Source: a virus. Taken from it: a stretch of DNA of 34,550 bases. The notes below the pieces were generated by a model. The model was not told where the DNA came from. It did not search any database and was given only the letters and a program-made list of their open reading frames with translations. The stretch spans positions 1 through 34,550 of the IMG/VR virus record IMGVR_UViG_3300025085_000089, one strand, 5' to 3'. Shown here one piece after another: positions 21,218-34,325 of this stretch (positions within the stretch are counted from its first letter, which is position 1; each line of letters opens with the position of its first letter). A program made the translations under genes and the position numbers.

Positions 21218-21293
21218 TTTTAATACGCTTTACTTTTTTTATTGGATAAATTTCTTCACTTAAATCATCCATCCAATCCCATTCTCTACTCAT
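21126..21293 (-). CDS. Small basic overlapping ORF (55 aa)
   Basis: An ATG at 21293 lies inside the 3' end of the SET gene (8-nt overlap, ATGAGTAG junction), the same overlap style used by confirmed neighbours. The frame runs 55 codons to a TAA at 21126, and its second half overlaps the start of the 91-aa gene in another frame. The product starts MSREWDWMDDLSEEIYP and then becomes very basic (KKVKRIKNEYKRNKIKNNR). It fills a 68-base gap that would otherwise be empty. The coupled start and Trp-rich N-terminus argue for a real gene; the overlap argues for caution. Confidence 0.4.
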   Translation of the reverse strand: MSREWDWMDDLSEEIYPIKKVKRIKNEYKRNKIKNNRSGSRGGQATDQSSEGRHY

Positions 21294-21678
21294 AATATTC
21301 TTTATTATAGGTGTGATGTCTGTAATTAACTAATATTTCATCTTCAGAAATAATATCTTTTTCAGCTATTAAAACTAAATTACTGTTTTTTTTAATATAA
21401 TAAAATTTAGCATTGTTTAAATTAGAGTGATTTGTATATCTCCCTGCTAAAGTTCGTGTATTATTTAACTTACCATAGCCTATAAAATCTCCTTTATTAA
21501 AATCTTTACAAGCAAATATTCCTTTTCCTTCTATTTTTGAAGGTAACACTTTATAATTTTTATTGTTATCATCAACAACAGGTCCAGCTTCTTTTTTAAA
21601 TTTATCTGACTCTATATAAATATTTAACTCTTCAAGGTTAATATTTAATTCATTTAGCATTTCCTTAAAATCATTCAT
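21286..21678 (-). CDS. SET-domain protein, putative lysine methyltransferase (130 aa)
   Basis: A compact SET domain preceded by about 45 helical residues. Visible hallmarks: the first strand, SKIEGKGIFACKDFNKGD (47-64); RTLAGRYTNHS (75-85), with the N-H-S (83-85) that binds S-adenosylmethionine; and the C-terminal SEDEILVNYR (111-120), with Y119 at the position of the catalytic tyrosine. It would transfer a methyl group from S-adenosylmethionine, most likely to a protein lysine; the substrate is unknown. No pre-SET or post-SET Cys cluster is present, as is usual for short viral SET proteins. It overlaps the dioxygenase gene by 8 nt. Confidence 0.8.
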   Translation of the reverse strand: MNDFKEMLNELNINLEELNIYIESDKFKKEAGPVVDDNNKNYKVLPSKIEGKGIFACKDFNKGDFIGYGKLNNTRTLAGRYTNHSNLNNAKFYYIKKNSNLVLIAEKDIISEDEILVNYRHHTYNKEYYE

Positions 21679-22144
21679 TTTTTTTATTTAAAAACGCTAC
21701 TTGAACCAATCTTGATTCGTTTTTTTTACCAAAGTTATCTAATGTATTTCTCGAATGCTTAACACTTGAAGGAAATATAAAAACAGAATTATATTTCGCT
21801 TTGGATACTAATATCTTATTATCATCATCATCATATAATGTTGTTCCATATCCATCAGGATGTTTTTTATTTAAATACAAAACAGCAGTTAAATCACCCA
21901 TCATATCATCTGTATGAATGTAGTTAGGTTCTTTTTGACCTAATGGTGATTGACGAACAAAATTTAAAACAACTTTATAATTAGGTACGTTATTTAAAAG
22001 AAATTCATAAAATTCATCTTCATGTTTTTGACAAACATTTTTAAATAAATTTTCTCCATCTGGTAAATCATAAAAACCTTTTTTTAATATTTCTTCTACA
22101 TAAAAATCAGGTTTAGAAATTACGTTTTGATAAAATTTTATCAT
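21671..22144 (-). CDS. 2-oxoglutarate/Fe(II)-dependent dioxygenase-like protein (157 aa)
   Basis: A double-stranded beta-helix fold is suggested by the conserved iron triad and oxoglutarate residue. H77-x-D79 lies in PNYIHTDDMMGDL, the distal H130 in FIFPSSVKHSRN, and R145 in ESRLVQVAFLN. A strand between them, LTAVLYLN, followed by GTTLYDDDDN, matches prolyl-hydroxylase-like phage proteins. It would hydroxylate a substrate (probably a protein side chain) using O2, Fe(II) and 2-oxoglutarate. It overlaps the SET gene by 8 nt and the GroES-like gene by 4 nt (ATGA). The three are therefore co-translated, and may act on the same target, which is inference. Confidence 0.8.
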   Translation of the reverse strand: MIKFYQNVISKPDFYVEEILKKGFYDLPDGENLFKNVCQKHEDEFYEFLLNNVPNYKVVLNFVRQSPLGQKEPNYIHTDDMMGDLTAVLYLNKKHPDGYGTTLYDDDDNKILVSKAKYNSVFIFPSSVKHSRNTLDNFGKKNESRLVQVAFLNKKNE

Positions 22145-22710
22145 AACACCACTGTTATATTTCTTGTAAACATCCTATATAATTTTTCATCATCTACTAC
22201 AAACTCGTATTCAGAGTCAGGTTCATATAAAACCTCATCACCTACTTTAACTCCCTTTTCAATTAACTCATTGTTAATGTATTTTACAATACCTCTTAAT
22301 GGTTCATTTTTAGAATTTTTATCAAGATAAGATTTTTTTGCTTTCAATGGTTTTATAAAACAATATTTGCTATAGCCCATCCAATTAGATTCTTCTTTAC
22401 TTTTATAAAGATAAAACTGATCTGGGTCTACAAAAAACAAATTGTCTTTGAAAAAACTTTTACCACTTTTTCTGCGACCATACATGTCATTATAAAATTT
22501 AAACACGTTATGATGCACTAAAAGTATATCGCCCTCTTTTATAGGACCTTTATAATTTATAGGAGTAGAGACTACAGTAGCAAAGCGATTAGAGGCTTTG
22601 TGATCTTCTTCCGAAGTACTTGTGATAAACTCTACATCACCGTAGTTTTTGATGTTGTCATACCTTCTATTGTTATAAGGTTTAACAATAAATGAGTAAG
22701 GTGATTTCAT
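22141..22710 (-). CDS. GroES-like co-chaperonin candidate (189 aa)
   Basis: The C-terminal block, PLRGIVKYIN (137-146) then GVKVGDEVLYEPDSEYEFVV (153-172) ending RNITVVL, matches the GroES pattern GxVxxxxxxxxxVKxGDxVxFxxxxGxEVxxxxxxYxxxxxxDIxAxx. A similar half-pattern appears at 43-66 (FATVVSTP ... PIKEGDILLVHHNVF). Two related halves separated by a hydrophobic or aromatic linker (DQFYLYKSKEESNWMGYSKYC) make it about twice the length of GroES. From memory, similar proteins occur in marine phages near terminase genes. A role in folding capsid or tail proteins with the host GroEL is inferred. It ends on the ATG of the dioxygenase gene. Confidence 0.55.
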   Translation of the reverse strand: MKSPYSFIVKPYNNRRYDNIKNYGDVEFITSTSEEDHKASNRFATVVSTPINYKGPIKEGDILLVHHNVFKFYNDMYGRRKSGKSFFKDNLFFVDPDQFYLYKSKEESNWMGYSKYCFIKPLKAKKSYLDKNSKNEPLRGIVKYINNELIEKGVKVGDEVLYEPDSEYEFVVDDEKLYRMFTRNITVVL

Positions 22711-24281: not shown

Positions 24282-24749
24282 TTAAGGGCATTGACACCCA
24301 TTAGCAGTTACTACTCCAGACGAATTAACAGAAATATTTGGACAATCACTTGATGTACAGCCAAAAAATGTTCCCTGACCAAATATCCAATATGAATTAG
24401 TTTGTGAAGCACCTGTCCAAGCGGTGTATGATCCATTTACATAATCATATAAAATATCATTTGTCGTTAAACCTGTAATAGGGTTTATTTTTGTGTAAAC
24501 AGTAACAGGCGGAGGAGCAGGATAATCAGCTTCCTGTAAAGTAATTTGATAATAACTTCTATCAACTGGATTAGGTGTACAGTCATCATTTACTGTAGGG
24601 TATGAATTACCAGAACCGTGAGAATTTCCGCCATTTATCATATCATACATAGATATTGGTCCAGTTATAGTTCCTGAACCCCAAGTTCCGTATAAAGCTT
24701 CTTGTGCTATATCTAACATTGACAACGCTCCTGATGTTGGTACAGCCAT
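24282..24749 (-). CDS. Virion protein with phage attachment-like start and Cys-terminated module (155 aa)
   Basis: The N-terminus, MAVPTSGALSMLDIAQEAL followed by GSGTITGPISMYDMINGG, resembles short N-terminal segments of phage structural proteins (P-x-SG-x-xSM-x-DI-x-xE). The C-terminal part (about 60-155) is a form of the shared module: TVYTKINPITGLTTNDILYD ... SSDCPNISVNSSGVVTANGC QCP. Here the spacing before the final Cys is longer, with an extra Cys pair. It starts at the stop codon of the 1274-aa fibre (TAATG overlap) and is probably co-assembled with it. Confidence 0.6.
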   Translation of the reverse strand: MAVPTSGALSMLDIAQEALYGTWGSGTITGPISMYDMINGGNSHGSGNSYPTVNDDCTPNPVDRSYYQITLQEADYPAPPPVTVYTKINPITGLTTNDILYDYVNGSYTAWTGASQTNSYWIFGQGTFFGCTSSDCPNISVNSSGVVTANGCQCP

Positions 24750-27700
24750 TATATATTACAGTTACAGTTATTACAATTACACGGTTTTGATTTTAATAAA
24801 TCTATTTCCGCTTTTAATTCTTTTATTGCTTCTAAAAGCACAGGTGTTATACCTTGATACCTTAAAGATAAGTTTCCTTTACCATTATCTCTAACAAGTT
24901 CTGGTAAAACTTTTTCAACATCTTGAGCTATAAAACCTATATCTTCTTTTATATCTAATATGCTTTCGCTATCTTTCCAATCAAACGTAACCCCTTGAAG
25001 CTGCATTGCTTTATCTAAAGCACTTTCAATTGGCTTAATATTTTCTTTATACTTTTTATCAGAAGGCGCACCATAAGCTATTATATCTCCTTTCACTGTC
25101 AAGTCTCCACCTCCTGTGGTACTTGTATCTAAGTCCATATAGATAGTTTCCCCCGTGCCAGCAGCATCATTAGTCCATTTAAAATTATAACCATTTCCAG
25201 CTGTTACCTTAAATTGCCCAGATTTACTGCCTGTTTGATTTGGTTTAAAATGTAAAACACTATTACCAGCTGTACTTGATTCAATTATAACGTGAGGATT
25301 AATAGCAGTAAACCTTGCAATTGCACCACTCGAAGTTCCGTCTCTAACATCTAATAAATATGATGGATTAGTCGTATGAATACCGACGTAACCTGTTGAT
25401 GTTATGTTAAATGCTGGGTCTGTAGATGCCAGATAACCTGTACCTATACCAAATGTACCTATATTATTACCAACGTACCACGTTTGTTGACCATCATAAG
25501 AGTATCTTGTTTGAGGTCTACCTGTTGAGACTAAGTGTGAAATTGAAGTTGCACTATTAACCCTATAGAATCGAGCCATATTTTCATTAGCTGAATTATT
25601 TACATCTAATTTATAACTTGGATTAGTTACCCCAATTCCTACGTCGCCATCAAAATACGAAGTACCATCAGAATTAACATTCATTATAGGTACACCAGAT
25701 ATATCAGCAACTGAAAAAATATCACCAGATAAATCATCTGTAACTGAGAATAACTGACCTTGTGTTCCTTGTACGTCTAATTTAGCGTTAGGTGTTGATG
25801 TTCCGATACCAACGTTTCCAATATCCGTGATTCTCATTCTTTCAACATCTACTCCTCCACCCGAAGCATCTGTTCCTCTTGATGTGTGAAAAACTAAATT
25901 ACCACAACCTTCAGATTGAACACCGCTATCACCGCTTGAGTCTCGAATCAACATTCCAATCCTTGCTTGAGGAGTGAAATTAGCATCTATGTCTGTACTT
26001 TTGAAATCTATAAAAGAACCCATAGAATCATCTGCAACAATATCAACAGCAGTTTGATGCAAAGTTAATAAAGTGGGAGCGCCTCCTGATACCTCAGAAA
26101 GCTCTAACTTGCTACCAGGATAAGTAGTCCCGATCCCGACGTTTTGTGAGTTGTCTATAATCATAGCAAAAGTTCCGCCTTGACCAGCGTGTGCTTCGCC
26201 TGTAGCGGTACCGTTAGTATAAAACTTAATAGGATGAGTTGAATTAATTCTTAGGTTAGAATCTCCTGACATTATAGAAGAAACTGTTCCGTCTGATTCA
26301 CCTAAACGTATTGTGGGAACGTCATTTGCTTCTATTACTAATGTATCGTATCTAATTAATCCTACAGGTGAAGCACCTTTGCTTATTCTAACAGCGGGTC
26401 CAGCCGTTATTGCGGTTACCCCAGCGTTTATGTCAAGCCTTGAATCTGGATCTATAAGCCCAATTCCGACGTTACCACCAGATTTAACTGTTATTCTATT
26501 AGAGTTAGATGTTCTAATATTGAAATCGTGAGATGTAGTTGTGCCAATTTCACCCCAATTAGCATCTGTATCATATCTTGCCCGAGTTCTTACTGCTACC
26601 GCACCCGCACCTGCTAAATTTAATAAATCCGCTCTATTGGAAAAACCAGTGTTGTTACCTTGTCCGTTCCAGGCATTTCTAATTCTAATAGTTGGATCGT
26701 CATTTATAGTTGTAGCAGTTCGCTCCACATCTAAATCATAATCAGGACTTGTCGTTCCTATACCTATTTTTTGTGTAAAAATATTTTTATCGTGCTGAAA
26801 TTCCACAGTTGTAGAGCCGTCTATTAAGAAATTCTGCGCTCTATATTGATGTGTTGGCGTTTTTAAATCTGTATTAGAGAATCTAAAAGAAGAATTAGGC
26901 TCTATAGAATTAGTTTCATCATCTACACCAGTTGGAGCAGAATTAGATACGTTTCCAGAAGCTATAGTGAATATGTAATTTTCTGTAAAACCACTGTTGT
27001 ATAAAGTTCTGTACGAAACAAAAGAACTCCACTCAATAGTAGGCACTCTTAACCAAACATCATAAGTAGTTCCATCTTTTGTAACTATACATTGAAAATT
27101 GTGTCCACCTGCATATCCTCCATCAGTTTGACAACTAACAGATACGCCTGTACTATAAAAAGAAACCACAACAGTACCTTTCATCCAGTAAGGATAATTG
27201 TTATCTCCTTTAGCTAAAATTTCTGTAAAAATTCTTGCACCAGTATCTGGACTTGTAAACTTACCTATTCTGTTCCAATTATTGTATACTACACCCGATG
27301 TGTATGAATACGCTGATCCAATTCTATAGTTCAACTGTATAAGACCAGAGGTTCTTGACTGAATAGCTCCTACATCAAGTATACGTAACTTTTCACTTTG
27401 GTTTCCTTCGTTTGTTGTATAAAATTGAATCTCCCCGTCTTCTTCTCCGTCTGTAACATCTGTAGCAACAGTATCAATTCTTGCAAAAGTTCTTAACCCA
27501 GGAGTGGTAGCGTCATTGTTTCCTTGAAAAACTATTCTGCCTAAGACATCGTTATCAGCAGGTGATGCAGACAATTTTTTCAATACTAAACCAGAAGGGT
27601 TAGCATCGGCATTAGTATTAATAAATTCTACCGCAGAAGCAGAAGCTGCACTTTCAACAACAAAAACATTTCCTGGCGTAGTAGTACCTACTCCAACCCT

Positions 27701-28573
27701 ACCTGTTTGTAAAATAGATAGTGGTGTCTTTTCATCTGTATCTGCATAAAACTTAAACTCTATTCTTTTAGGAACACTTCCGCTCCCATTTATTGCGTTT
27801 ATTTCAGAGTATCTTGGGTTTGAACTTCCAGGTCCCCAAAGTGTATATCCTCTAAATTGTATACTTGATCCTGAATTATTTGCGTATGTGTATTGAGAGT
27901 TTGTTAATTGTAATATAGGACCTATTGCGCTACTAACTGTTTTATATAATTCTAATGTATTGTTTGGATTTGATGTCCCTATACCTACGTTACCTGGATT
28001 TGAAAAGTAAGCGTGTGTGGTACCGCCATCTAATGTTAAATAATCAGAAACTCCTCCAGAACCATCATCACATTGTAATATTATATCTCCATCATCCTTA
28101 AATTGTGTAAGATATAAACCGCCAGAAGTTGTAGATAAATTTAAATCTCCTGCGCCATTTGTAACAAAACTATGTGTTCCATTGTGGAATATTTGAAGGT
28201 CTTGTGCAGCACCAAATTTAGCATAAACTTGGTCACCATAATTAGTATGATCATTAAACTGGGTTACACCAGTCATTGTACCACCAGCAAGTGGTAAATA
28301 AGGACCTCCAGCACCCCCGCCACTTGATACGGATATGTTACCATTAGCATCAGTTACTAATGTGCCAGCTCCTAAATCACTGAATTGTATTGTTCCACTT
28401 GAGTTAACATCAAGTATTGGTACACCTGATATATCTGATACAGCGAATATAGATCCGCTTAAATTGTCGGTTACTGAGAAAAGTTGACCTTGTGATCCTT
28501 GAACGTCTACTACAGTACCACCTGAAGCGCCTTCTACAATTAGTCCTTTTCTTATTTTAAATTCGTTTGCCAT
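24749..28573 (-). CDS. Tail fibre with C-terminal peptidase-S74-type chaperone (1274 aa)
   Basis: A long fibre built of repeated short beta elements of the type NVGIGTxxPxxKLDV. A non-repeat beta domain lies at about 410-555 (IGKFTSPDTGARIFTEIL ... GGYAGGHNFQC). Residues 22-64 and a second copy (about 25647-25795) are a 'QGQLFSVTDDLSG' block shared with the 1054-aa fibre. The C-terminal 104 residues are an intramolecular chaperone domain. S1171 starts SDKKYKENIKP (codon 25063-25061), the Ser-Asp plus Lys pattern of the autocleavage site. Then GFIAQDVEKVLPELV and a trimeric helix ALLEAIKELKAEIDLL. It would help trimerise the fibre and then cleave itself off. The very end is unusual: CNCNNCNCNI. 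Confidence 0.85.
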   Translation of the reverse strand: MANEFKIRKGLIVEGASGGTVVDVQGSQGQLFSVTDNLSGSIFAVSDISGVPILDVNSSGTIQFSDLGAGTLVTDANGNISVSSGGGAGGPYLPLAGGTMTGVTQFNDHTNYGDQVYAKFGAAQDLQIFHNGTHSFVTNGAGDLNLSTTSGGLYLTQFKDDGDIILQCDDGSGGVSDYLTLDGGTTHAYFSNPGNVGIGTSNPNNTLELYKTVSSAIGPILQLTNSQYTYANNSGSSIQFRGYTLWGPGSSNPRYSEINAINGSGSVPKRIEFKFYADTDEKTPLSILQTGRVGVGTTTPGNVFVVESAASASAVEFINTNADANPSGLVLKKLSASPADNDVLGRIVFQGNNDATTPGLRTFARIDTVATDVTDGEEDGEIQFYTTNEGNQSEKLRILDVGAIQSRTSGLIQLNYRIGSAYSYTSGVVYNNWNRIGKFTSPDTGARIFTEILAKGDNNYPYWMKGTVVVSFYSTGVSVSCQTDGGYAGGHNFQCIVTKDGTTYDVWLRVPTIEWSSFVSYRTLYNSGFTENYIFTIASGNVSNSAPTGVDDETNSIEPNSSFRFSNTDLKTPTHQYRAQNFLIDGSTTVEFQHDKNIFTQKIGIGTTSPDYDLDVERTATTINDDPTIRIRNAWNGQGNNTGFSNRADLLNLAGAGAVAVRTRARYDTDANWGEIGTTTSHDFNIRTSNSNRITVKSGGNVGIGLIDPDSRLDINAGVTAITAGPAVRISKGASPVGLIRYDTLVIEANDVPTIRLGESDGTVSSIMSGDSNLRINSTHPIKFYTNGTATGEAHAGQGGTFAMIIDNSQNVGIGTTYPGSKLELSEVSGGAPTLLTLHQTAVDIVADDSMGSFIDFKSTDIDANFTPQARIGMLIRDSSGDSGVQSEGCGNLVFHTSRGTDASGGGVDVERMRITDIGNVGIGTSTPNAKLDVQGTQGQLFSVTDDLSGDIFSVADISGVPIMNVNSDGTSYFDGDVGIGVTNPSYKLDVNNSANENMARFYRVNSATSISHLVSTGRPQTRYSYDGQQTWYVGNNIGTFGIGTGYLASTDPAFNITSTGYVGIHTTNPSYLLDVRDGTSSGAIARFTAINPHVIIESSTAGNSVLHFKPNQTGSKSGQFKVTAGNGYNFKWTNDAAGTGETIYMDLDTSTTGGGDLTVKGDIIAYGAPSDKKYKENIKPIESALDKAMQLQGVTFDWKDSESILDIKEDIGFIAQDVEKVLPELVRDNGKGNLSLRYQGITPVLLEAIKELKAEIDLLKSKPCNCNNCNCNI
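25647..25795 (-). repeat. Fibre module copy, FSVTDDLSG-type (second copy in the 1274-aa fibre)
   Basis: Encodes AKLDVQGTQGQLFSVTDDLS ... ISGVPIMNVNSDGTSYFDGD. It is nearly identical in protein to the block at 33931-34075 and related to the one at 28382-28510. Confidence 0.7.
27975..28303 (-). repeat. Fibre module copy (YLPLAGGTMTG to FSNPGNVGIG) in the 1274-aa fibre
   Basis: Encodes YLPLAGGTMTG, then a LQIFHNGTHSF region, YLTLDGGTTHAYFSNPGNVG. The last part matches 31810-32108 at nucleotide level (GAAAAGTAAGCGTGTGTGGT shared on the plus strand). Confidence 0.7.
28382..28510 (-). repeat. Fibre module copy near N-terminus of the 1274-aa fibre
   Basis: Encodes DVQGSQGQLFSVTDNLSGSI and SDISGVPILDVNSSGTIQF. 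The third copy of the module present at 25647 and 33931. Confidence 0.65.
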
Positions 28574-28608
28574 ATTATCTTTTTTTCACTGTCCAAAAAG
28601 TTATTATT

Positions 28609-29307
28609 CTATAAATTATATCTGCTTTTTAAAGCGTCATAGTTTTGCTGTATTTCAGCTGCAGTTAAACCTCTGTTGTACATTGTAGCGTAAGAAATAC
28701 GCCCAGGCCAATTGTGATTTGAATCCCCAAGGTCACCATAAGTACCCACGTTGTAATAAACAGTACTTGGCACTGTTATAACGCCAGTTTGAGATACTGT
28801 ACCTATAAGTTCGCCGTTTAAATATGTTTTTGTAGTAGAACCATTATAAGACATTGCTAACATACTCCATTGGTTAGTGTATATAGTTCCTGTTTCAATT
28901 GTTGGCCTACCTGAAGCTGTTTGTACACCCGCGTGAATAGCTGAAGAACCTGAGCTTGAATTTGGCCACAATCCTAAATACATTGCACCAGGTCCTCCCC
29001 AAGCTGAACCTCTTGATCTACCGCCGCTTGTGTTAGCGTCTTCATCTGGATATACCCAAGCTAATATTGTTATTCCAGAAGTAGCTGGCTGTGCTGTATA
29101 TAAAATGGTTATTCTATCATCAACACCGTCAAAATCAAAATATCCTAAATCATTAGAGGAATATCCTACGCCATTTATAAGTGAAGTACTTGCTGAATCT
29201 CCAGTTAAATCATTAGCTGTAGTGCCACTGCCTGAATATGATTTTGAATTAGCAGCATCAAGAGCATATACTAATCCGTCTGTTACTATGTGAGGTCCTG
29301 TATACAT
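28609..29307 (-). CDS. LamG/concanavalin-like jelly-roll protein, paralogue 1 (232 aa)
   Basis: A free-standing jelly-roll domain of the LamG/concanavalin-A-like glucanase fold used by many phage adhesins for sugar binding. Motifs: MYTGPHIVTDGLVYALDAAN, then YFDFDGVDDRI (the typical 'xFDGxDDxI' strand), ITILAWVYPDE, MSYNGSTTKTYLNGELIGTV, ending NRGLTAAEIQQNYDALKSRY. It shares start, middle and end motifs with the neighbours at 29307-30008 and 30461-31159, so the three are a tandem family. It shares one base with the preceding paralogue's TAA (TAATG). Confidence 0.8.
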   Translation of the reverse strand: MYTGPHIVTDGLVYALDAANSKSYSGSGTTANDLTGDSASTSLINGVGYSSNDLGYFDFDGVDDRITILYTAQPATSGITILAWVYPDEDANTSGGRSRGSAWGGPGAMYLGLWPNSSSGSSAIHAGVQTASGRPTIETGTIYTNQWSMLAMSYNGSTTKTYLNGELIGTVSQTGVITVPSTVYYNVGTYGDLGDSNHNWPGRISYATMYNRGLTAAEIQQNYDALKSRYNL

Positions 29308-30008
29308 TATATAAATCTGTTTTTTAGTGTGTTAAAATTTTGTAATATTTCTGCTGCAGTTAATGCTCTGTTATAGACTTGATGATTTGAAATTTCACCA
29401 TTCCACGCGTAAAGTCCCCCACTCGATCTATTTGCTATTCTGCCAATACTTGGTTTTGTAGTGCATCTATTGAAACCTGAAGGAGATGTTGATGAATTTT
29501 GTAATACTGCGTTTTTATATAGTTTTATAGTTGTTGTATCCCAGGTGATTGTTGTTAGTTGCCACGTGTCGGCTACAAGTCCGACTCCTGAAAACTCACC
29601 ATAAGTGTAATTGGTTCCTTGATGCCTCCATAAAAGCTTATTATTATGTCCGATATGATGCCATATACCAAAATCACCATCGCCATTATTATATGTATTA
29701 TACAACGGAATAGCATTATCTCCCCACGAAGACCCATCAGGCTTTAACCAAGCAGATAAAGTATAAGATCCATTGTCACTTAGTTGATCAGAATTTGAAG
29801 CAAAATCTATAAAATCATCAGTACCGTCAAACTCCCAAGACCCGCCATTATTGCTGTTAAAAGCTACACCGTTATTTAAAGTACCTGTATTTGAGCCTAC
29901 TAAACTTGTAGTTGTTGTTCCGCTACCAGGATAAGACCTTTCGCTTCCTGGATCTACCGCAAATACTAATCCGTCTGTTATTATATCTGGTCCACCGTAT
30001 GCTCCCAT
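29307..30008 (-). CDS. LamG/concanavalin-like jelly-roll protein, paralogue 2 (233 aa)
   Basis: The same architecture as paralogue 1. It starts MGAYGGPDIITDGLVFAVDPGS, has SWEFDGTDDFIDFASNSDQL, SYTLSAWLKPDGSSW, TTIKLYKNAVLQNSS, and ends NRALTAAEILQNFNTLKNRF. The glycan-binding jelly roll could be a fibre-bound or soluble adhesin. Sequence between conserved strands is clearly diverged from the other two, as expected for receptor-binding faces. One base separates its start from the stop of the 80-aa gene. Confidence 0.8.
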   Translation of the reverse strand: MGAYGGPDIITDGLVFAVDPGSERSYPGSGTTTTSLVGSNTGTLNNGVAFNSNNGGSWEFDGTDDFIDFASNSDQLSDNGSYTLSAWLKPDGSSWGDNAIPLYNTYNNGDGDFGIWHHIGHNNKLLWRHQGTNYTYGEFSGVGLVADTWQLTTITWDTTTIKLYKNAVLQNSSTSPSGFNRCTTKPSIGRIANRSSGGLYAWNGEISNHQVYNRALTAAEILQNFNTLKNRFI

Positions 30009-30009
30009 A

Positions 30010-30252
30010 TTATTCTTCTTCTATTGGTTCACTCCATTCTGGAGTAGCCATTATTGCTAAAATTTCTTCGTGAGTGTAAGGCCCTTCGTATGTACTTAAT
30101 GTTGATACAAAGTCAGGTTCATCACCCTCCCATTTTAATACTGTTTGTAAACCATCAACTGATAGTCTAACTGTATCTATTGACGTTTCCATAACTTCGT
30201 TGAAATCAACTAAAGATAATTCGTCTGTGTTTATTGTAATGTATGTTATCAT
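30010..30252 (-). CDS. Small acidic protein between LamG paralogues (80 aa)
   Basis: An acidic protein, MITYITINTDELSLVDFNEV, with VRLSVDGLQTVLKWEGDEPD and an acidic Pro-containing end (TPEWSEPIEEE). The start overlaps the previous stop by 4 nt (ATGA within the 17-nt junction repeat). No recognised family. It may be a fibre-assembly chaperone or a connector, because such small proteins sit beside phage adhesins; this is speculation from position. Confidence 0.5.
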   Translation of the reverse strand: MITYITINTDELSLVDFNEVMETSIDTVRLSVDGLQTVLKWEGDEPDFVSTLSTYEGPYTHEEILAIMATPEWSEPIEEE

Positions 30253-30265
30253 AATCCAAATCTTA
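30249..30265 (-). repeat. 17-nt junction repeat, copy 1 (stop/start of small genes)
   Basis: The plus strand reads TCATAATCCAAATCTTA, identical to 30461-30477. On the minus strand it encodes the ending R-F-G-L-stop, with the ATG of the next gene embedded. It marks an end that was duplicated. Confidence 0.75.
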
Positions 30266-30464
30266 TTAATAAATTATCGTAATTTTCTAATATTTTATAA
30301 TCAGGAGTTTCCGTATAATTTCTTGATGTAGATACAAGAAGTATTACGTTATTATCTAACATAAAGTCTTCAAACTCTTGGTCATTATTAAACTCACTTG
30401 TTTTAACTTCACCTATATAAATATACGTTATAGATAATTCAGAATTTTCAATATAATTTTTCAT
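30249..30464 (-). CDS. Small protein with LamG-like C-terminal end (71 aa)
   Basis: A 71-aa protein, MKNYIENSELSITYIYIGEV ... NNDQEFEDFMLDNNVILL, whose last residues, NLLIRFGL, match the LamG paralogue ending KLRFGL. The match covers the same 17-nt sequence, so the ends are probably homologous by duplication. The body is not LamG-like. It could be a small accessory protein that acquired this end by recombination, or the residue of a former LamG gene with a replaced 5' part. Starts 4 nt inside the previous gene's stop (ATGA). Confidence 0.5.
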   Translation of the reverse strand: MKNYIENSELSITYIYIGEVKTSEFNNDQEFEDFMLDNNVILLVSTSRNYTETPDYKILENYDNLLIRFGL

Positions 30465-30477
30465 AATCCAAATCTTA
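30461..30477 (-). repeat. 17-nt junction repeat, copy 2
   Basis: Identical to 30249-30265. It covers the stop of LamG paralogue 3 and the start of the 71-aa gene. Confidence 0.75.
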
Positions 30478-31159
30478 ATTTTCCTGCGTTATAATTTTGT
30501 AATACTTCTGCAGCGGTTAATGCTTTACTATATACTTTAGAGGCAGCTATCCTGCCGTCCATTGTGTAATTAGTGTTAATAGATCCCCCAAAATAAAGAG
30601 CATTAGGATAGTTTCCAATATTACCAGTATAAGCATCTGCGTCTTCTAAAACTCCATTTTTATAAAGTTTTACTCCTACGCCAACTTCATAAGTACCTGT
30701 CCAATGTTGCCACTCCCCTGTTGTAGTGCTTCCAACAGAAGTGTAATATATGTTTCCAGTAGCACAAGGACCGTTTGGACCAGATACCTGCATTCTCATA
30801 GCAGAACCTGCTTGTATTAATCCAGTATTACATCCTACTTTTCCAACAATTGTTTTGTCAAACCCAGATAGCGCATCAAAATATACCCAAACATCGTAAC
30901 TAAAACTTTGACCTGTTTTATGAGTTACTGTATCAGTTAGTTGTATATAGTCAAAAGTAGTAGGTCCGTTAAAATTAAATCCGCCTTGAGAGCCTGATGT
31001 ATATGTAATAGATCCATTTAATGTTGCGTTATTATTATTTGCAGAAGGAACCATAGGATAAACTGTTGTGCCTGATCCTGGATATGATCTTTCTGATGCT
31101 GAATCTATAACGTAAATTAATCCGTCTGTTACTATATTTGGTCCTCTATAAAATCCCAT
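30461..31159 (-). CDS. LamG/concanavalin-like jelly-roll protein, paralogue 3 (232 aa)
   Basis: It starts MGFYRGPNIVTDGLIYVIDS, has GGFNFNGPTTFDYIQL (in the slot of FDGxDDxI, with a changed acidic pair), SYDVWVYFDALSG, WQHWTGTYEVGVGVKLYKNG, and ends KALTAAEVLQNYNAGKLRFG. It is the same fold and length as the two other copies. Loss of the DD pair in the first motif may alter metal or sugar binding (inference). It begins one base after the 1054-aa fibre, suggesting co-expression with it. Confidence 0.8.
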   Translation of the reverse strand: MGFYRGPNIVTDGLIYVIDSASERSYPGSGTTVYPMVPSANNNNATLNGSITYTSGSQGGFNFNGPTTFDYIQLTDTVTHKTGQSFSYDVWVYFDALSGFDKTIVGKVGCNTGLIQAGSAMRMQVSGPNGPCATGNIYYTSVGSTTTGEWQHWTGTYEVGVGVKLYKNGVLEDADAYTGNIGNYPNALYFGGSINTNYTMDGRIAASKVYSKALTAAEVLQNYNAGKLRFGL

Positions 31160-31160
31160 A

Positions 31161-34100
31161 TTATATTGCTCTTATTAATGATTTAACACTCCAGTCATCT
31201 GAAGCTACTGTTGCTAATAATCTCATATTAGCTCCTGATATATCTACGCTTAAAACGACGTCTGATGTATCACCTAAGTCTTGTGTCGATGTTTCTGTAA
31301 ACTCTACCAAAGGAGTTGTATCTCCATCGTGACAAGCGTATACTGTGCCTGATCTTACGTTTGTACCTTTCTTAACCACAAAGTCAAAGAAAGCTGCGGT
31401 ATAGGTAGCGTGTGCTACTTGAGCAACTACTTCAGCGCCTGTATCTATGTCTGTATTTTCTTGGTTAGATAATAAAGCTGACTGAATCTTTATATTACCA
31501 TTAACATCAAGCTTTTCCCCAGGAGTTGTAGTCCCAATACCTACTTTTTTATTAGCAAGTATAGTCATAGCTAAATCACTATTACTAACCATAAAATAAA
31601 GAGGGTCTTCAGTTATATTTCTAATATAAGCACCTGCGCCCCCATCTCCAATAGAGCCTCCATTTAAATAGCCCATTAATAAACCGTAACTACCGTCTTT
31701 ATTTACACCAAACCATTTTTGTGAAGTACCGCCTGATGTGCTTATTTGAACAGGTACATTTGTATCTGCTAAAGAACCTGACCCAACACTTAGCAATGCT
31801 AAAGGATTAGTCTCCCCGATTCCTACGTTGCCTGGGTTTGAAAAGTAAGCGTGTGTGGTAGAGCCATCTAATGTTAAGTAAGATACTGAAGCCCCCGAGC
31901 CATTATCGCATTCAAATATTATGTCTTTATCGTCGGCGTGATTACTGATATATAAATTACCAAAAGCGTTAGAAATAACAGAGTTTGTTGCGTTGTGAAA
32001 TATTTCAAGGTCTGGCGCTATAGCACCTCCAAATTTTAACTTAAAATTGTCTGGCATTAAAACTCCAGCAGTTCCAGTCATTGTTCCGCCAGCCAGTGGT
32101 AAATAAGCTCCAACAGGTGTTGGTCCAAACGCACCAGTACCTAATTCTCTTGTTTGTATTTGATTAGTACCAGCTGTAACTTGTTTTACTGATATGTTGT
32201 CTACACTCCCAATAGCGTCTGCATTAGCTTGTACGTATATATTGGTATTTGACGAAGCATGGGTTGGGGTTACTTTCACCTCGTATGTACCATTGGCTAC
32301 TTGAGCAGGGGTGCTTGAAGTATAACCGCCAACGTTTATCCTAAACTCACCAGCTGAATAATTAGAAACAGTATATGTGATTATATACTCTATATTTTCT
32401 GGGGGGTTTGGTAATATTCCACCTTGATATAAATAAGTTGTGGCTGTTTGTGTTCCATCTACATTTGCTTTACCTCCCGATATAGTCCAACCTGTTTGTT
32501 TTACCCAATCACTATCAGTAGCAAAATCTCCGTTTACAACTGTAAGTGAAGTTGTAGTTTGATTTTGTACTAATACAGAAGTAGAACTTCCATTACCTGG
32601 TAAATCAGAAACACCAAATGTTCCGTCTACCTCTAATTTAAAATTAGGTAAAGTCGTACCTACTCCTAAACCGTTAGAGTTTAAAGTAGTTGCGGCGCTA
32701 CCGTTTATATAATTATATTGAGTACCACCTGTCCAAGCAGAACACATAGAACCATTTGAGAATAACCTTATATACCCTGATTGCATCCCTATGTCACCAT
32801 ATCCTGAAGTGCTACCTCCTTGTATTCTTATTTTTGCTAATACATTTGCAGAACTATCATTTAAAACGTGTAATGGGGCGTCAGGACTATCTGTTCCAAC
32901 CCCTACAAAACCACCGTTTGACTGTATTGCTAAATTGTATGTTGTAGCTGTGCCGTCTGTTCTTTGAGAGCTTATATAGCCAACACCTGAAGAGTTAGCT
33001 CCTATTGCAACTCCATAGTTATCAGAAGAACTACTGTTACCAAAAACAGCAGAAGCTGTAGAATCACCAGCAGCTGGTATTGTTGTGCTACCTGAAGCTA
33101 CCTGAAGCCCTGCTGCAGGACTTGTCGTTCCTATACCTACGTTGACTCCAGAACTTGTTCCGTAAACAGTTAAACCTGTTAAAAGATTTCCACTTGTAGA
33201 TTTAACTTTTAAATCTAAAGAACCTCTTACTGAACTTAAATTATTTGAATAAGCTTGAATAGCAGCGTAATCCGTATATGATGAGTTGTATTCAGCTGGA
33301 AATGTAATACTACCTACACCTGTCGAAGCAGCTATATTACTACCTGACCTTGATATTATTACAGAGCTGTTAGCATTAGCTTTATCTATATGCAACTTAG
33401 CAACAGGATTAGTAGTCCCTATACCTACGTTGCCTGAGCTGTTCATTAATAATCTTGTAGTTCCACCTGTTGCAAACGAAATTTCACTCTGACCTATTGC
33501 AGCAAGCCTATTACCCGCTGTAATATCCATTATAGCTAAAACATCGGAATTTACTCCGTTAGTTTTTAATCCATAAATATTTCCAGTTCCTTTTGTAGAG
33601 TTTAATTTTATAAAACTATTAACATCTCCATCTGTCTTAATTTCAAGCTTTGCGTCAGGATTTGTAGTCCCTATACCTACGTTACCTCCTGGTTTTACCA
33701 TTATTCTGGACGTACCTGCTGATATAGGATCACCTCCAACAGAATTAGACTCATATAGTCCAAAATCACCAGCAGTTAAATTAGTTGATGCAAATCCCCA
33801 GTTTGAAACGCCTCCGCTTCCTTTAAATTTTAATGTAGCTACATCTGCACTTTTAATTAAAATACCATCTCCACTTGCTACATTAACTTCTAACTTAGCT
33901 AAAGGAGTAGATGTTCCAATACCTAAATCTCCATCAAAATACGAGGTGCCGCTTGAGTTTACAGCCATAATAGGTACTCCTGAAATGTCAGCTACAGCAA
34001 ATATTTCTCCTGACAAGTCATCAGTTACAGAAAATAATTGCCCTTGTGTTCCTTGGACATCAAGCTTTGCATTTGGAGTGGTAGTACCAATTCCTACGTT

Positions 34101-34325
34101 ACCAGAGGAGTTGATAATCATTCTATCAGCACTGTTTGTTCTAAATTGTAGTTTGTTACTTACAGTACTCCCTTCTATTGAAGTAGCACCTACTGTACCC
34201 CAAGAAATAAATTCTCCACTTTTAATTAAAACATCCCCATCAACATCTAATTTAGCCCCTGGAGTCTCCGTTCCAATACCTACCCTGCCTGCGAAATACC
34301 CGCTATTAAGAAATCTTAATGCCAT
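31161..34325 (-). CDS. Tail fibre with GIGT repeats and a carbohydrate-binding-type domain (1054 aa)
   Basis: Repeated beta elements of the kind NVGIGTTNPxAKLEI run through most of the protein. Residues about 594-716 (32175-32545) form a different domain: VNGDFATDSDWVKQTGWTIS, a strand YIITYTVSNYSAGEFRI, NGTYEVKVTPTHA, ending GSVDNISVKQV. This is the pattern of a galactose-binding-like or CBM4/9-type jelly roll. The shared modules YLPLAGGTMTG to FSNPGNVGIG and FSVTDDLSG occur as in the 1274-aa fibre. The end (about 960-1054; 'TDIDTGAEVVAQVAH ... VKSLIRAI') is a separate beta-rich domain. No S74 chaperone is seen, so it may fold without autocleavage or use another helper. Confidence 0.75.
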   Translation of the reverse strand: MALRFLNSGYFAGRVGIGTETPGAKLDVDGDVLIKSGEFISWGTVGATSIEGSTVSNKLQFRTNSADRMIINSSGNVGIGTTTPNAKLDVQGTQGQLFSVTDDLSGEIFAVADISGVPIMAVNSSGTSYFDGDLGIGTSTPLAKLEVNVASGDGILIKSADVATLKFKGSGGVSNWGFASTNLTAGDFGLYESNSVGGDPISAGTSRIMVKPGGNVGIGTTNPDAKLEIKTDGDVNSFIKLNSTKGTGNIYGLKTNGVNSDVLAIMDITAGNRLAAIGQSEISFATGGTTRLLMNSSGNVGIGTTNPVAKLHIDKANANSSVIISRSGSNIAASTGVGSITFPAEYNSSYTDYAAIQAYSNNLSSVRGSLDLKVKSTSGNLLTGLTVYGTSSGVNVGIGTTSPAAGLQVASGSTTIPAAGDSTASAVFGNSSSSDNYGVAIGANSSGVGYISSQRTDGTATTYNLAIQSNGGFVGVGTDSPDAPLHVLNDSSANVLAKIRIQGGSTSGYGDIGMQSGYIRLFSNGSMCSAWTGGTQYNYINGSAATTLNSNGLGVGTTLPNFKLEVDGTFGVSDLPGNGSSTSVLVQNQTTTSLTVVNGDFATDSDWVKQTGWTISGGKANVDGTQTATTYLYQGGILPNPPENIEYIITYTVSNYSAGEFRINVGGYTSSTPAQVANGTYEVKVTPTHASSNTNIYVQANADAIGSVDNISVKQVTAGTNQIQTRELGTGAFGPTPVGAYLPLAGGTMTGTAGVLMPDNFKLKFGGAIAPDLEIFHNATNSVISNAFGNLYISNHADDKDIIFECDNGSGASVSYLTLDGSTTHAYFSNPGNVGIGETNPLALLSVGSGSLADTNVPVQISTSGGTSQKWFGVNKDGSYGLLMGYLNGGSIGDGGAGAYIRNITEDPLYFMVSNSDLAMTILANKKVGIGTTTPGEKLDVNGNIKIQSALLSNQENTDIDTGAEVVAQVAHATYTAAFFDFVVKKGTNVRSGTVYACHDGDTTPLVEFTETSTQDLGDTSDVVLSVDISGANMRLLATVASDDWSVKSLIRAI
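31810..32108 (-). repeat. Fibre module copy (YLPLAGGTMTG to FSNPGNVGIG) in the 1054-aa fibre
   Basis: Counterpart of 27975-28303. It encodes YLPLAGGTMTGT, a LEIFHNATNSV region and YLTLDGSTTHAYFSNPGNVG. The final stretch is nearly identical in DNA to the other fibre. Confidence 0.7.
33931..34075 (-). repeat. Fibre module copy, FSVTDDLSG-type, in the 1054-aa fibre
   Basis: Encodes DVQGTQGQLFSVTDDLSGEI and VADISGVPIMAVNSSGTSYF. About 40 of the ~45 residues match the block at 25647-25795. Confidence 0.7.

Follow-up and report, generated by a model that had tools for sequence, protein, structure and literature searches.

The IMG/VR virus record IMGVR_UViG_3300025085_000089, a partial genome that was analysed as one window of 34,550 bases, encodes two large modular fibres, the S74-type fibre A (P0001; 1274 amino acids; 24749-28573) and fibre B (P0002; 1054 amino acids, without S74; 31161-34325), with three LamG-like genes between them. 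We consider it probable, at roughly three chances in four, that these genes form a host-recognition module that exchanges linker-bounded cassettes and conserved end islands by recombination, and that the FSVTDDLSG blocks found in both fibres are old and bound to their positions. The locus is a mosaic in which homology breakpoints cluster at a repeated linker, FSVTDDLSG blocks keep to their positions with one exception, and cassettes recur across the two fibre positions. The initial annotation had described near-identical modules shared by the two fibres and had proposed recent gene conversion or recombination between them. All fibre and LamG-like genes, and all elements placed within this locus, lie on the minus strand.

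The linker, GNVGIGTTxPxxKL, separates domains in both fibres and occurs in 18 copies in the window. Eight are in fibre A (A1, 27965-27994; A2, 27674-27703; A3, 26744-26773; A4, 26447-26476; A5, 26117-26146; A6, 25790-25819; A7, 25619-25648; A8, 25364-25393) and ten in fibre B (B1, 34260-34289; B2, 34074-34103; B3, 33903-33932; B4, 33657-33686; B5, 33405-33434; B6, 33117-33146; B7, 32883-32912; B8, 32646-32675; B9, 31803-31832; B10, 31521-31550). Breakpoints were collected from matches of at least 80% identity and at least 150 nucleotides (nt) among 41 fibre genes or gene pieces from the window and from related loci, which are labelled here with L-numbers. This set was hand-picked and consisted of 36 of 54 listed open reading frames (ORFs) together with L005_B2, L111_B, L116_B and the two window genes; nine ORFs were dropped as same-contig or near-duplicate (two each of L009, L115 and L117, and L092, L099 and L104) and nine others were left out (L010, L014, L017 twice, L018, L020, L103, L108 and L125). 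With breakpoints no more than 15 nt apart in one query gene merged, and with one event possibly counted in both partner genes, the linker held 127 of the 262 distinct internal match ends, against a fraction of 0.12 expected at random places. When the motif was slid to seven offsets between -120 and +150 nt, it held 0.01-0.11 of the ends, and under looser match limits 300 of 924 ends fell in the linker (expected 0.13). At linker A8 the break can be followed base by base: identity between the window and L111 drops from 0.98 to 0.38 at 25367 (60 bases on each side), and that with L003 from 0.82 to 0.33 at 25370. L005 breaks at 25357 (0.88 to 0.43), and in L008 a small shift near A8 leaves the break unreadable by per-base identity.

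Islands of the locus that are conserved among relatives include the 3' end of fibre A with S74 (24749-25370, its edge within a linker), a linker-DDLSG-linker segment of fibre A (25600-25823), the 5' end of fibre A with the end of the upstream gene (28395-28680), and the 3' end of fibre B (31117-31541, its edge in the last linker). Twenty relatives, among which L003/L004, L008/L009 and L110/L117 are near-duplicates, were compared with the window by the proportion of differing synonymous sites (pS) in the terminase. L111 stands at 0.03, with 99.7% amino acid identity, L003 and L004 at 0.14, and the other 17 at 0.67-0.80. Against relatives with a saturated terminase (pS 0.67-0.80) and good protein matches, the islands gave pS of 0.17 (L005) and 0.36 (L008) for S74, 0.27-0.40 for A-C (L005, L006, L008, L110, L112, L114 and L121), 0.23-0.46 for A-N (seven loci), 0.37-0.48 for B (L005, L110, L113 and L116) and 0.29-0.48 for the C-terminal end of fibre B (seven loci). 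Island matches with protein identity under 0.5, which are probably paralogous or replaced, gave 0.61-0.72, and the short LamG ends ranged from 0.25 to 0.99. The clearest cases of replacement are L111 and L003, the relatives close to the window by terminase. In the near-clonal L111 the fibre islands have pS of 0.13-0.28, and the DNA of fibre A can be aligned with that of the window only along both ends, the DDLSG island and a displaced 84-nt match (78.6%). Between the N-terminal end and the DDLSG island its protein gives only shifted or 28% matches, and a partial fibre B of L111 has the C-terminal end and two short pieces in common with the window.

The FSVTDDLSG block occurs in three copies, as had been annotated, with core codons starting at 25750, 28480 and 34034. 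The 87-nt FSVT..LSG cores are designated A-N (28394-28480; 89.7% DNA identity to L114 and L008), A-C (25664-25750; 98.9% to L111 and L006) and B (33948-34034; 93.1% to L110 and L005). To call these modules near-identical was an overstatement: codon-aligned DNA identity is 0.67 for A-C/B, 0.68 for A-N/B and 0.70 for A-N/A-C, and 0.65 for the YLPLAGG..GIG block, the second module in common. Because the flanks of the shared modules fail to align between the two fibres, synonymous saturation and outside relatives were used in place of a comparison of modules with flanks. Recent gene conversion predicts synonymous divergence well under saturation and copies that are closest within a genome. Over the shared tracts pS was 0.52-0.80, with 0.787 (A-C/B), 0.804 (A-N/B) and 0.674 (A-N/A-C) for the FSVT pairs and 0.555 for YLPLAGG..GIG; sister FSVT cores in the window are 69% identical, against 89.7-98.9% for copies at the same position elsewhere. 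Among 18 distinct cores, the nine within-locus pairs are 65.5-73.6% identical. A tree of 27 copies rejected a single clade of the three window copies (P of the approximately unbiased test, p-AU, 8.5e-5) and a grouping of A-C with B (p-AU 1.1e-71). On it the position labels need three changes, which is the minimum, against a mean of 13.5 for shuffled labels, none of 200 shuffles being as low; the B group has support of 94/99. The FSVTDDLSG blocks are best explained as three old, position-bound versions of one module common to these phages, and not as the product of recent mutual conversion. Identical residues of A-C and B have the same codon at 20 of 63 sites where 29.6 are expected (z -2.5), but z is -0.8 and -0.2 in the other two pairs, which weakly supports the idea that identical protein blocks are deliberately kept apart in DNA.

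Cassettes outside the FSVT blocks behave differently from these blocks, for which the best pair of at least 120 nt between an A and a B gene reached only 77.4% among the 41 fibre genes. A fibre B cassette of the window (32140-32669) is present in fibre A of L005 with 83.2% identity over 530 nt, and its pS is 0.44 where that of the terminase is 0.80. Similarly, a cassette of the fibre-A-type gene of L008 matches the fibre-B-type gene of L116 at 85.1% (pS 0.39; terminase 0.61). Fibre-A-type genes of L120 and L121 match window fibre B cassettes at pS 0.56 and 0.50, L120 matches L116 at 82.0% (pS 0.51), and five weaker cross-fibre cassettes have pS of 0.36-0.70. Since these cassettes are shared and the FSVT blocks are not, cassettes have crossed between the A and B positions over a longer time scale and the FSVT islands stay put. 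The proposed exchange between fibres thus holds for fibre positions of different phages, and not as a recent event within the pair in the window.

The YLPLAGG...FSNPGNVGIG block has one copy per fibre (27959-28300 in A; 31797-32105 in B), as the initial annotation had it, and its best repeat pair spans 78 nt at 85% identity. The 20-mer reported from both fibres was recovered at exactly two sites (28002-28021 and 31840-31859; 0 expected) and sits inside a common word of 24 nt (27999-28022 in A; 31837-31860 in B). Two more exact words, of 24 and 21 nt, connect linker repeats at non-corresponding positions in the two fibres, so the exact 20-mer is not peculiar to this block. The 20-mer is also found in two other phages, L092 and L099. 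At identical residues of the block the two fibres have the same codon in 37 of 60 cases (28.9 expected; z 2.2), a modest excess. Over the last 132 nt the window copies are 70.5% identical, and over the last 159-196 nt the fibre-A-type genes of L120 and L121 are 80.6% and 84.9% identical to window fibre B. A weak tree of nine rows did not reject the window pair (p-AU 0.076). Codon identity in THAYFSNPGNVGIG was considered as a peculiarity of the window pair and rejected, as 10 of 14 codons are equal and 13 of 78 pairs match that level. The annotated conservation of DNA beyond the needs of the protein is real; it lies in the linker repeats and in islands that different phages have in common, and gives no support to recent exchange between fibres A and B.

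Sequence matches indicate what the linker may be as a protein element. In a phmmer search, a 76-residue linker-DDLSG stretch of fibre B matched 8ond (Bd2133) at E=6.4e-13, as well as 8ojn, 8oml, 8ol4 and 8on4, cell wall surface anchor proteins that are taken to be the other structures of mosaic adhesive trimer (MAT) fibres. In our own mapping the 370-residue chain of 8ond corresponds to residues 662-1031, with which T681-SGNLG at chain position 20 agrees. On this numbering one match spans the start of the first domain (667-703; 20.5 bits), one ends at the border between the two domains (787-814; 8.3 bits, weak alone) and one lies in the second domain, 19 residues short of its end (857-888; 26.1 bits). 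Given these positions relative to the domain borders, a linker-to-linker cassette is probably, though not certainly, one trimeric domain. The linker itself probably corresponds to the loop that caps trimeric beta-helix domains in the MAT fibres of Bdellovibrio, which form an intertwined trimer and whose loop, at the beta-helix edges, is printed as V-G-G/N-pi-X-X-P-X-X-X-L in the passages available (PMC10769870). All 18 window linkers have xxx[LF] after the proline, VGx[GH]xxxP having been required by the search pattern itself. A weak match to MyRF (E=0.052) came from the last linker of fibre B; the motif search of the MAT study as excerpted also returned this protein (PMC10769870). From the same excerpts, the two systems are alike in sequence-matched repeats, probably in capping loops at beta-helix edges, and in S74 and non-S74 forms and a mosaic architecture; MAT fibres differ in sitting on the bacterial surface and in having a signal peptide followed by a conserved N-terminal domain of about 130 residues, where the present locus is that of a phage with paired fibres and lectin genes, and these passages report no linker analysis at the DNA level (PMC10769870). 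The same linker was also seen in many bacterial and archaeal genomes among the matches listed (L277-L356), those of Patescibacteria, Bacteroidota and Omnitrophota among them, mostly as metagenome-assembled genomes.

Both fibres would be assembled from a shared repertoire of exchangeable pieces that meet at the repeated linker seam. Linker-to-linker cassettes and the conserved end islands would be exchanged among the phages of the group at or near linkers, mostly within one fibre at one position, at times across the A and B positions, and receptor specificity may change as a result. The most likely agent is relaxed homologous recombination between coinfecting phages, for which linkers and islands would supply, and linkers perhaps seed, the homology. 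Rad52-like recombinases, including Erf, recombine diverged DNA in Escherichia coli phages according to the parts consulted of PMC3945230, and by analogy such a relaxed system would be a plausible agent here, ERF being present in three of ten records.

Several observations weigh against this model of exchange. Alignment ends can be pulled toward conserved motifs, so the pairs with close terminases carry most weight among the breakpoints. Selection on the islands could reduce pS without any transfer, and the islands of L120 are high, at 0.61 (S74) and 0.59 (A-C) with protein identities of 0.64 and 0.79. DUF7936, directly outside fibre A, likewise has pS under that of the terminase (0.42-0.59) and reaches 0.61 in L003, a terminase-close relative; its intermediate values suggest that the region of DUF7936 and the fibres may move as one unit. 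Many branches of the FSVT tree are weak, including that of the A-N group (63/40), and the A-C rows do not form one side of a branch (p-AU 0.069 for A-C together) because an internal copy of L120, the single exception to position binding, groups with the A-N type. Linkers of fibres A and B in the window share codons at 0.412, where 0.395 is expected, which is no excess. The linker is spaced like the Bd2133 repeats, both having one residue more between VG and P than the printed MAT consensus. An ERF recombinase was found in only three of the ten records, nine of which are contigs that may be incomplete, and RecT and AAA_24 in none of the ten, most of them perhaps fragments.

Among the alternative explanations, recent conversion between the window's own fibres A and B is very unlikely to have made the blocks alike. 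Word lengths speak for it to a degree: in 2,000 synonymous shuffles that preserved the codons of each gene, a word of at least 24 nt in the YLPLAGG block had P=0.0115 (at least 20 nt, P=0.0645), and the genes have three words of at least 20 nt in common where 0.30 are expected (P=0.0015), the longest word anywhere between the fibres, 24 nt, having P=0.067. Linker codons also agree slightly more within a phage than in permuted pairs (0.109 against 0.090; P=0.016) across 11 two-fibre phages, of which L098 and L109 are related. However, synonymous sites are saturated or nearly so in the FSVT pairs between A and B and high in YLPLAGG..GIG, the FSVT copies group by position with those of other phages, and the 20-mer recurs outside the window. 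Stronger linker sharing between the window's own fibres was rejected as well, the excess being 0.013. Equally improbable is a history without recombination, in which rapid selective divergence has left only structurally constrained islands and linkers alignable. Islands and linkers do coincide with protein-conserved parts, but this history does not sit well with cassettes that differ largely at a terminase pS of 0.03, with a sharp base-level break, with islands of low pS where the terminase is saturated, or with one cassette recurring in distinct fibre genes of separate phages. Diversity-generating retroelements and DNA invertases are known routes by which phage adhesins vary; they are the least probable source of variation here, as replacement involves whole cassettes, and reverse transcriptase (RVT_1) and serine recombinase (Resolvase) were each found in none of the ten records searched, a set that did not include the window.

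The linker is also marked by its codons. These were counted in a wider set of 40 fibre genes or pieces from the window's group (terminase match in 23 of 24 records tested, five contigs lying outside that test); L003_A was omitted from the pooled counts and retained in the breakpoint, codon-sharing, matched-neighbour and by-contig analyses. The related L098 and L109 were both used, linker copies within a gene are not independent, and figures binned by GC content were averaged by contig. Within linkers AAC encodes 146 of 204 asparagines (outside, 1032 of 3118) and ACG 112 of 405 threonines (outside, 240 of 3946), with GTC at 75 of 221 valines (outside, 94 of 2407) and ATC at 79 of 231 isoleucines (outside, 141 of 2540). 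The two neighbouring threonines differ, the first being ACG in 100 of 203 cases and the next ACT in 144 of 178. With neighbouring residues matched, and with an outside set that may partly be decayed linkers, the bias persisted for ACG in GT[TSA], at 104 of 213 against 14 of 194, and for AGT in TSP, at 113 of 139 against 9 of 24. It was weaker for AAC in [GN]N[VLI]G (p=0.043) and ATC in GIG (p=0.013), and GTC in NVG gave no clear bias (p=0.056). In the window itself AAC is used in 9 of 9 cases (outside, 56 of 158) and ACG in 5 of 15 (outside, 8 of 202). A codon-neutral pattern picked out 136 ORFs in other viral contigs, which were not sorted by terminase and include at least one contig of the window's group; in these ORFs the bias is weaker yet present for AAC, ACG and AGT, and in eight ORFs from isolated cyanophages and a pelagiphage five of 11 codon tests gave p<0.05.

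Below a GC content of 0.42, the range in which the window phage falls, the signature in AAC, ACG and AGT is confined to phages. At GC 0.36-0.42 the fractions inside and outside linkers are 0.85/0.33 for AAC, 0.49/0.06 for ACG and 0.73/0.24 for AGT in the window set, and 0.53/0.29, 0.27/0.07 and 0.51/0.26 in other viral contigs with isolates, contigs that were not sorted by terminase and include at least one of the window's group (L160, the contig of L114). In bacterial and archaeal contigs, whose matches may include prophages, they are 0.25/0.27, 0.15/0.11 and 0.26/0.23, with ATC (0.29/0.15) and GTC (0.22/0.12) raised too. At GC 0.42-0.48 the viral set resembles the bacterial one in ACG (0.32/0.15 and 0.26/0.13) and AGT (0.42/0.20 and 0.33/0.19). 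Above 0.48 ACG and AGT bias is present in both, and AAC exceeds its outside level only in the viral set (0.79/0.59; bacterial, 0.51/0.50). Linker codons may be conserved as crossover seeds, homogenised by crossovers, or kept for translation. The last, a translational or RNA-level selection in place of recombination, is a serious if still doubtful account of the signature: AAC and ATC are possibly accuracy-preferred codons in AT-rich hosts, folding energy in linkers is slightly lower than under synonymous resampling (mean z -0.39 and -0.23), and bacterial linkers have an ATC excess at GC 0.36-0.42 and excesses of ACG, AGT, GTC and ATC above 0.42, those of ACG and AGT being of about viral size. 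Against it, ACG, GGG and GTC are rare elsewhere in the fibre genes, the two adjacent threonines favour different codons, and bacterial linkers, in which the AAC, ACG and AGT bias is missing below GC 0.42, show an equal folding shift (z -0.27); an RNA hairpin behind the linker codons was rejected on that equality. More tentative still is the proposal that the linker is a recombination joint at the DNA level, in which phages of unrelated hosts would keep a common word (approximately GGY AAC GTN GGN ATH GGN ACG ACT AGT CCT) under synonymous constraint for in-frame, domain-by-domain exchange across a shared gene pool, the FSVTDDLSG islands with their position-specific DNA fixing the register of exchange.

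Recombination at conserved motifs in tail fibre genes was reportedly described by Tetart in 1998. From the portions consulted of PMC10684548, PMC10408124 and PMC3909814, mosaic fibres, exchange points with conserved motifs and host-recognition genes that vary in marine phages are already known. The excerpts of PMC10408124 propose the conserved DNA that surrounds the receptor-binding part as a hotspot of recombination across phage genera, with three motifs around one domain; here there are up to 16 copies of one linker per gene, shaft cassettes are exchanged, and cassettes are common to two fibre positions. Domain shuffling of phage receptor-binding proteins likewise shows recent mosaicism that crosses phage groups, in a protein-level survey whose available passages contain no codon analysis of linkers (PMC10684548). 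Metaviromic islands, too, hold host-recognition genes that vary among otherwise similar marine phages, in a study that rests on read recruitment and in whose text, as consulted, the word recombination is absent (PMC3909814). For a many-copy linker as exchange border in phage fibres, and for its synonymous signature, no description was found in the literature searched; a text search for the letters of the motif found none either, which does not prove the motif undescribed. Linker DNA is conserved beyond what the protein requires and may help phages to swap receptor-binding parts. If the linker is a conserved crossover joint, this would explain how receptor-binding domains can be added to or lost from a fibre that stays intact, it would give a simple marker for cassette borders in metagenomes, and selection at the DNA level in phage modularity would become directly testable through linker recoding.

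In minus-strand order the locus consists of fibre B, a LamG-like gene (30461-31159), an ORF of 80 amino acids (30010-30252), two further LamG-like genes (29307-30008 and 28609-29307) and fibre A, the LamG-like genes being assigned by Pfam (Laminin_G_3). The order fibre B, LamG genes, fibre A is the same in nine loci (L005, L008, L110-L114, L116 and L118). Fibre A carries a Peptidase S74 or endosialidase chaperone domain at residues 1171-1228 (24890-25063; PF13884, E=1.5e-19) that includes the SDxxxK motif of S74 chaperones as SDKKYK at residue 1171; fibre B matched no Pfam family at E 0.01, S74 included. A blastn search of fibre A against named phages gave no match, and the NCBIfam profile search gave TafC matches only, all under the cut-off. 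As in the fibres, the ends of the LamG-like genes (28609-31159) are similar in DNA among copies and phages and their middles are divergent. The 80-residue ORF has low pS across eight loci of distant relatives (0.07-0.44, the minimum in L114) and matched no Pfam or NCBIfam family at E 0.01.

Elsewhere in the window PHROGs recognise the terminase, the portal and one structural protein. The terminase matched 87 named phage records, 86 of them below 60% identity and mostly phages of Flavobacterium (68) and Cellulophaga (15), from which a Bacteroidota host can be guessed; the best match (73.5%) is to a podovirus from Manatee Spring, and the closest terminases of named phages whose host is known come from those two genera. 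Within 21286-22144 lies a SET-domain gene (PF00856, E=2.2e-8), which adjoins a possible 2OG-Fe(II) oxygenase under Pfam's cut-off, and 22141-22710 has a weak Cpn10-like match slightly under that cut-off; MW202828, a related record, carries annotations for groEL and chaperonin 10. The region 3701-4582 matches the C-terminal domain of the crAss-phage muzzle protein (PF25729, E=2.9e-10); the terminase of the window phage, as noted, is similar to those of phages of Flavobacterium and Cellulophaga.

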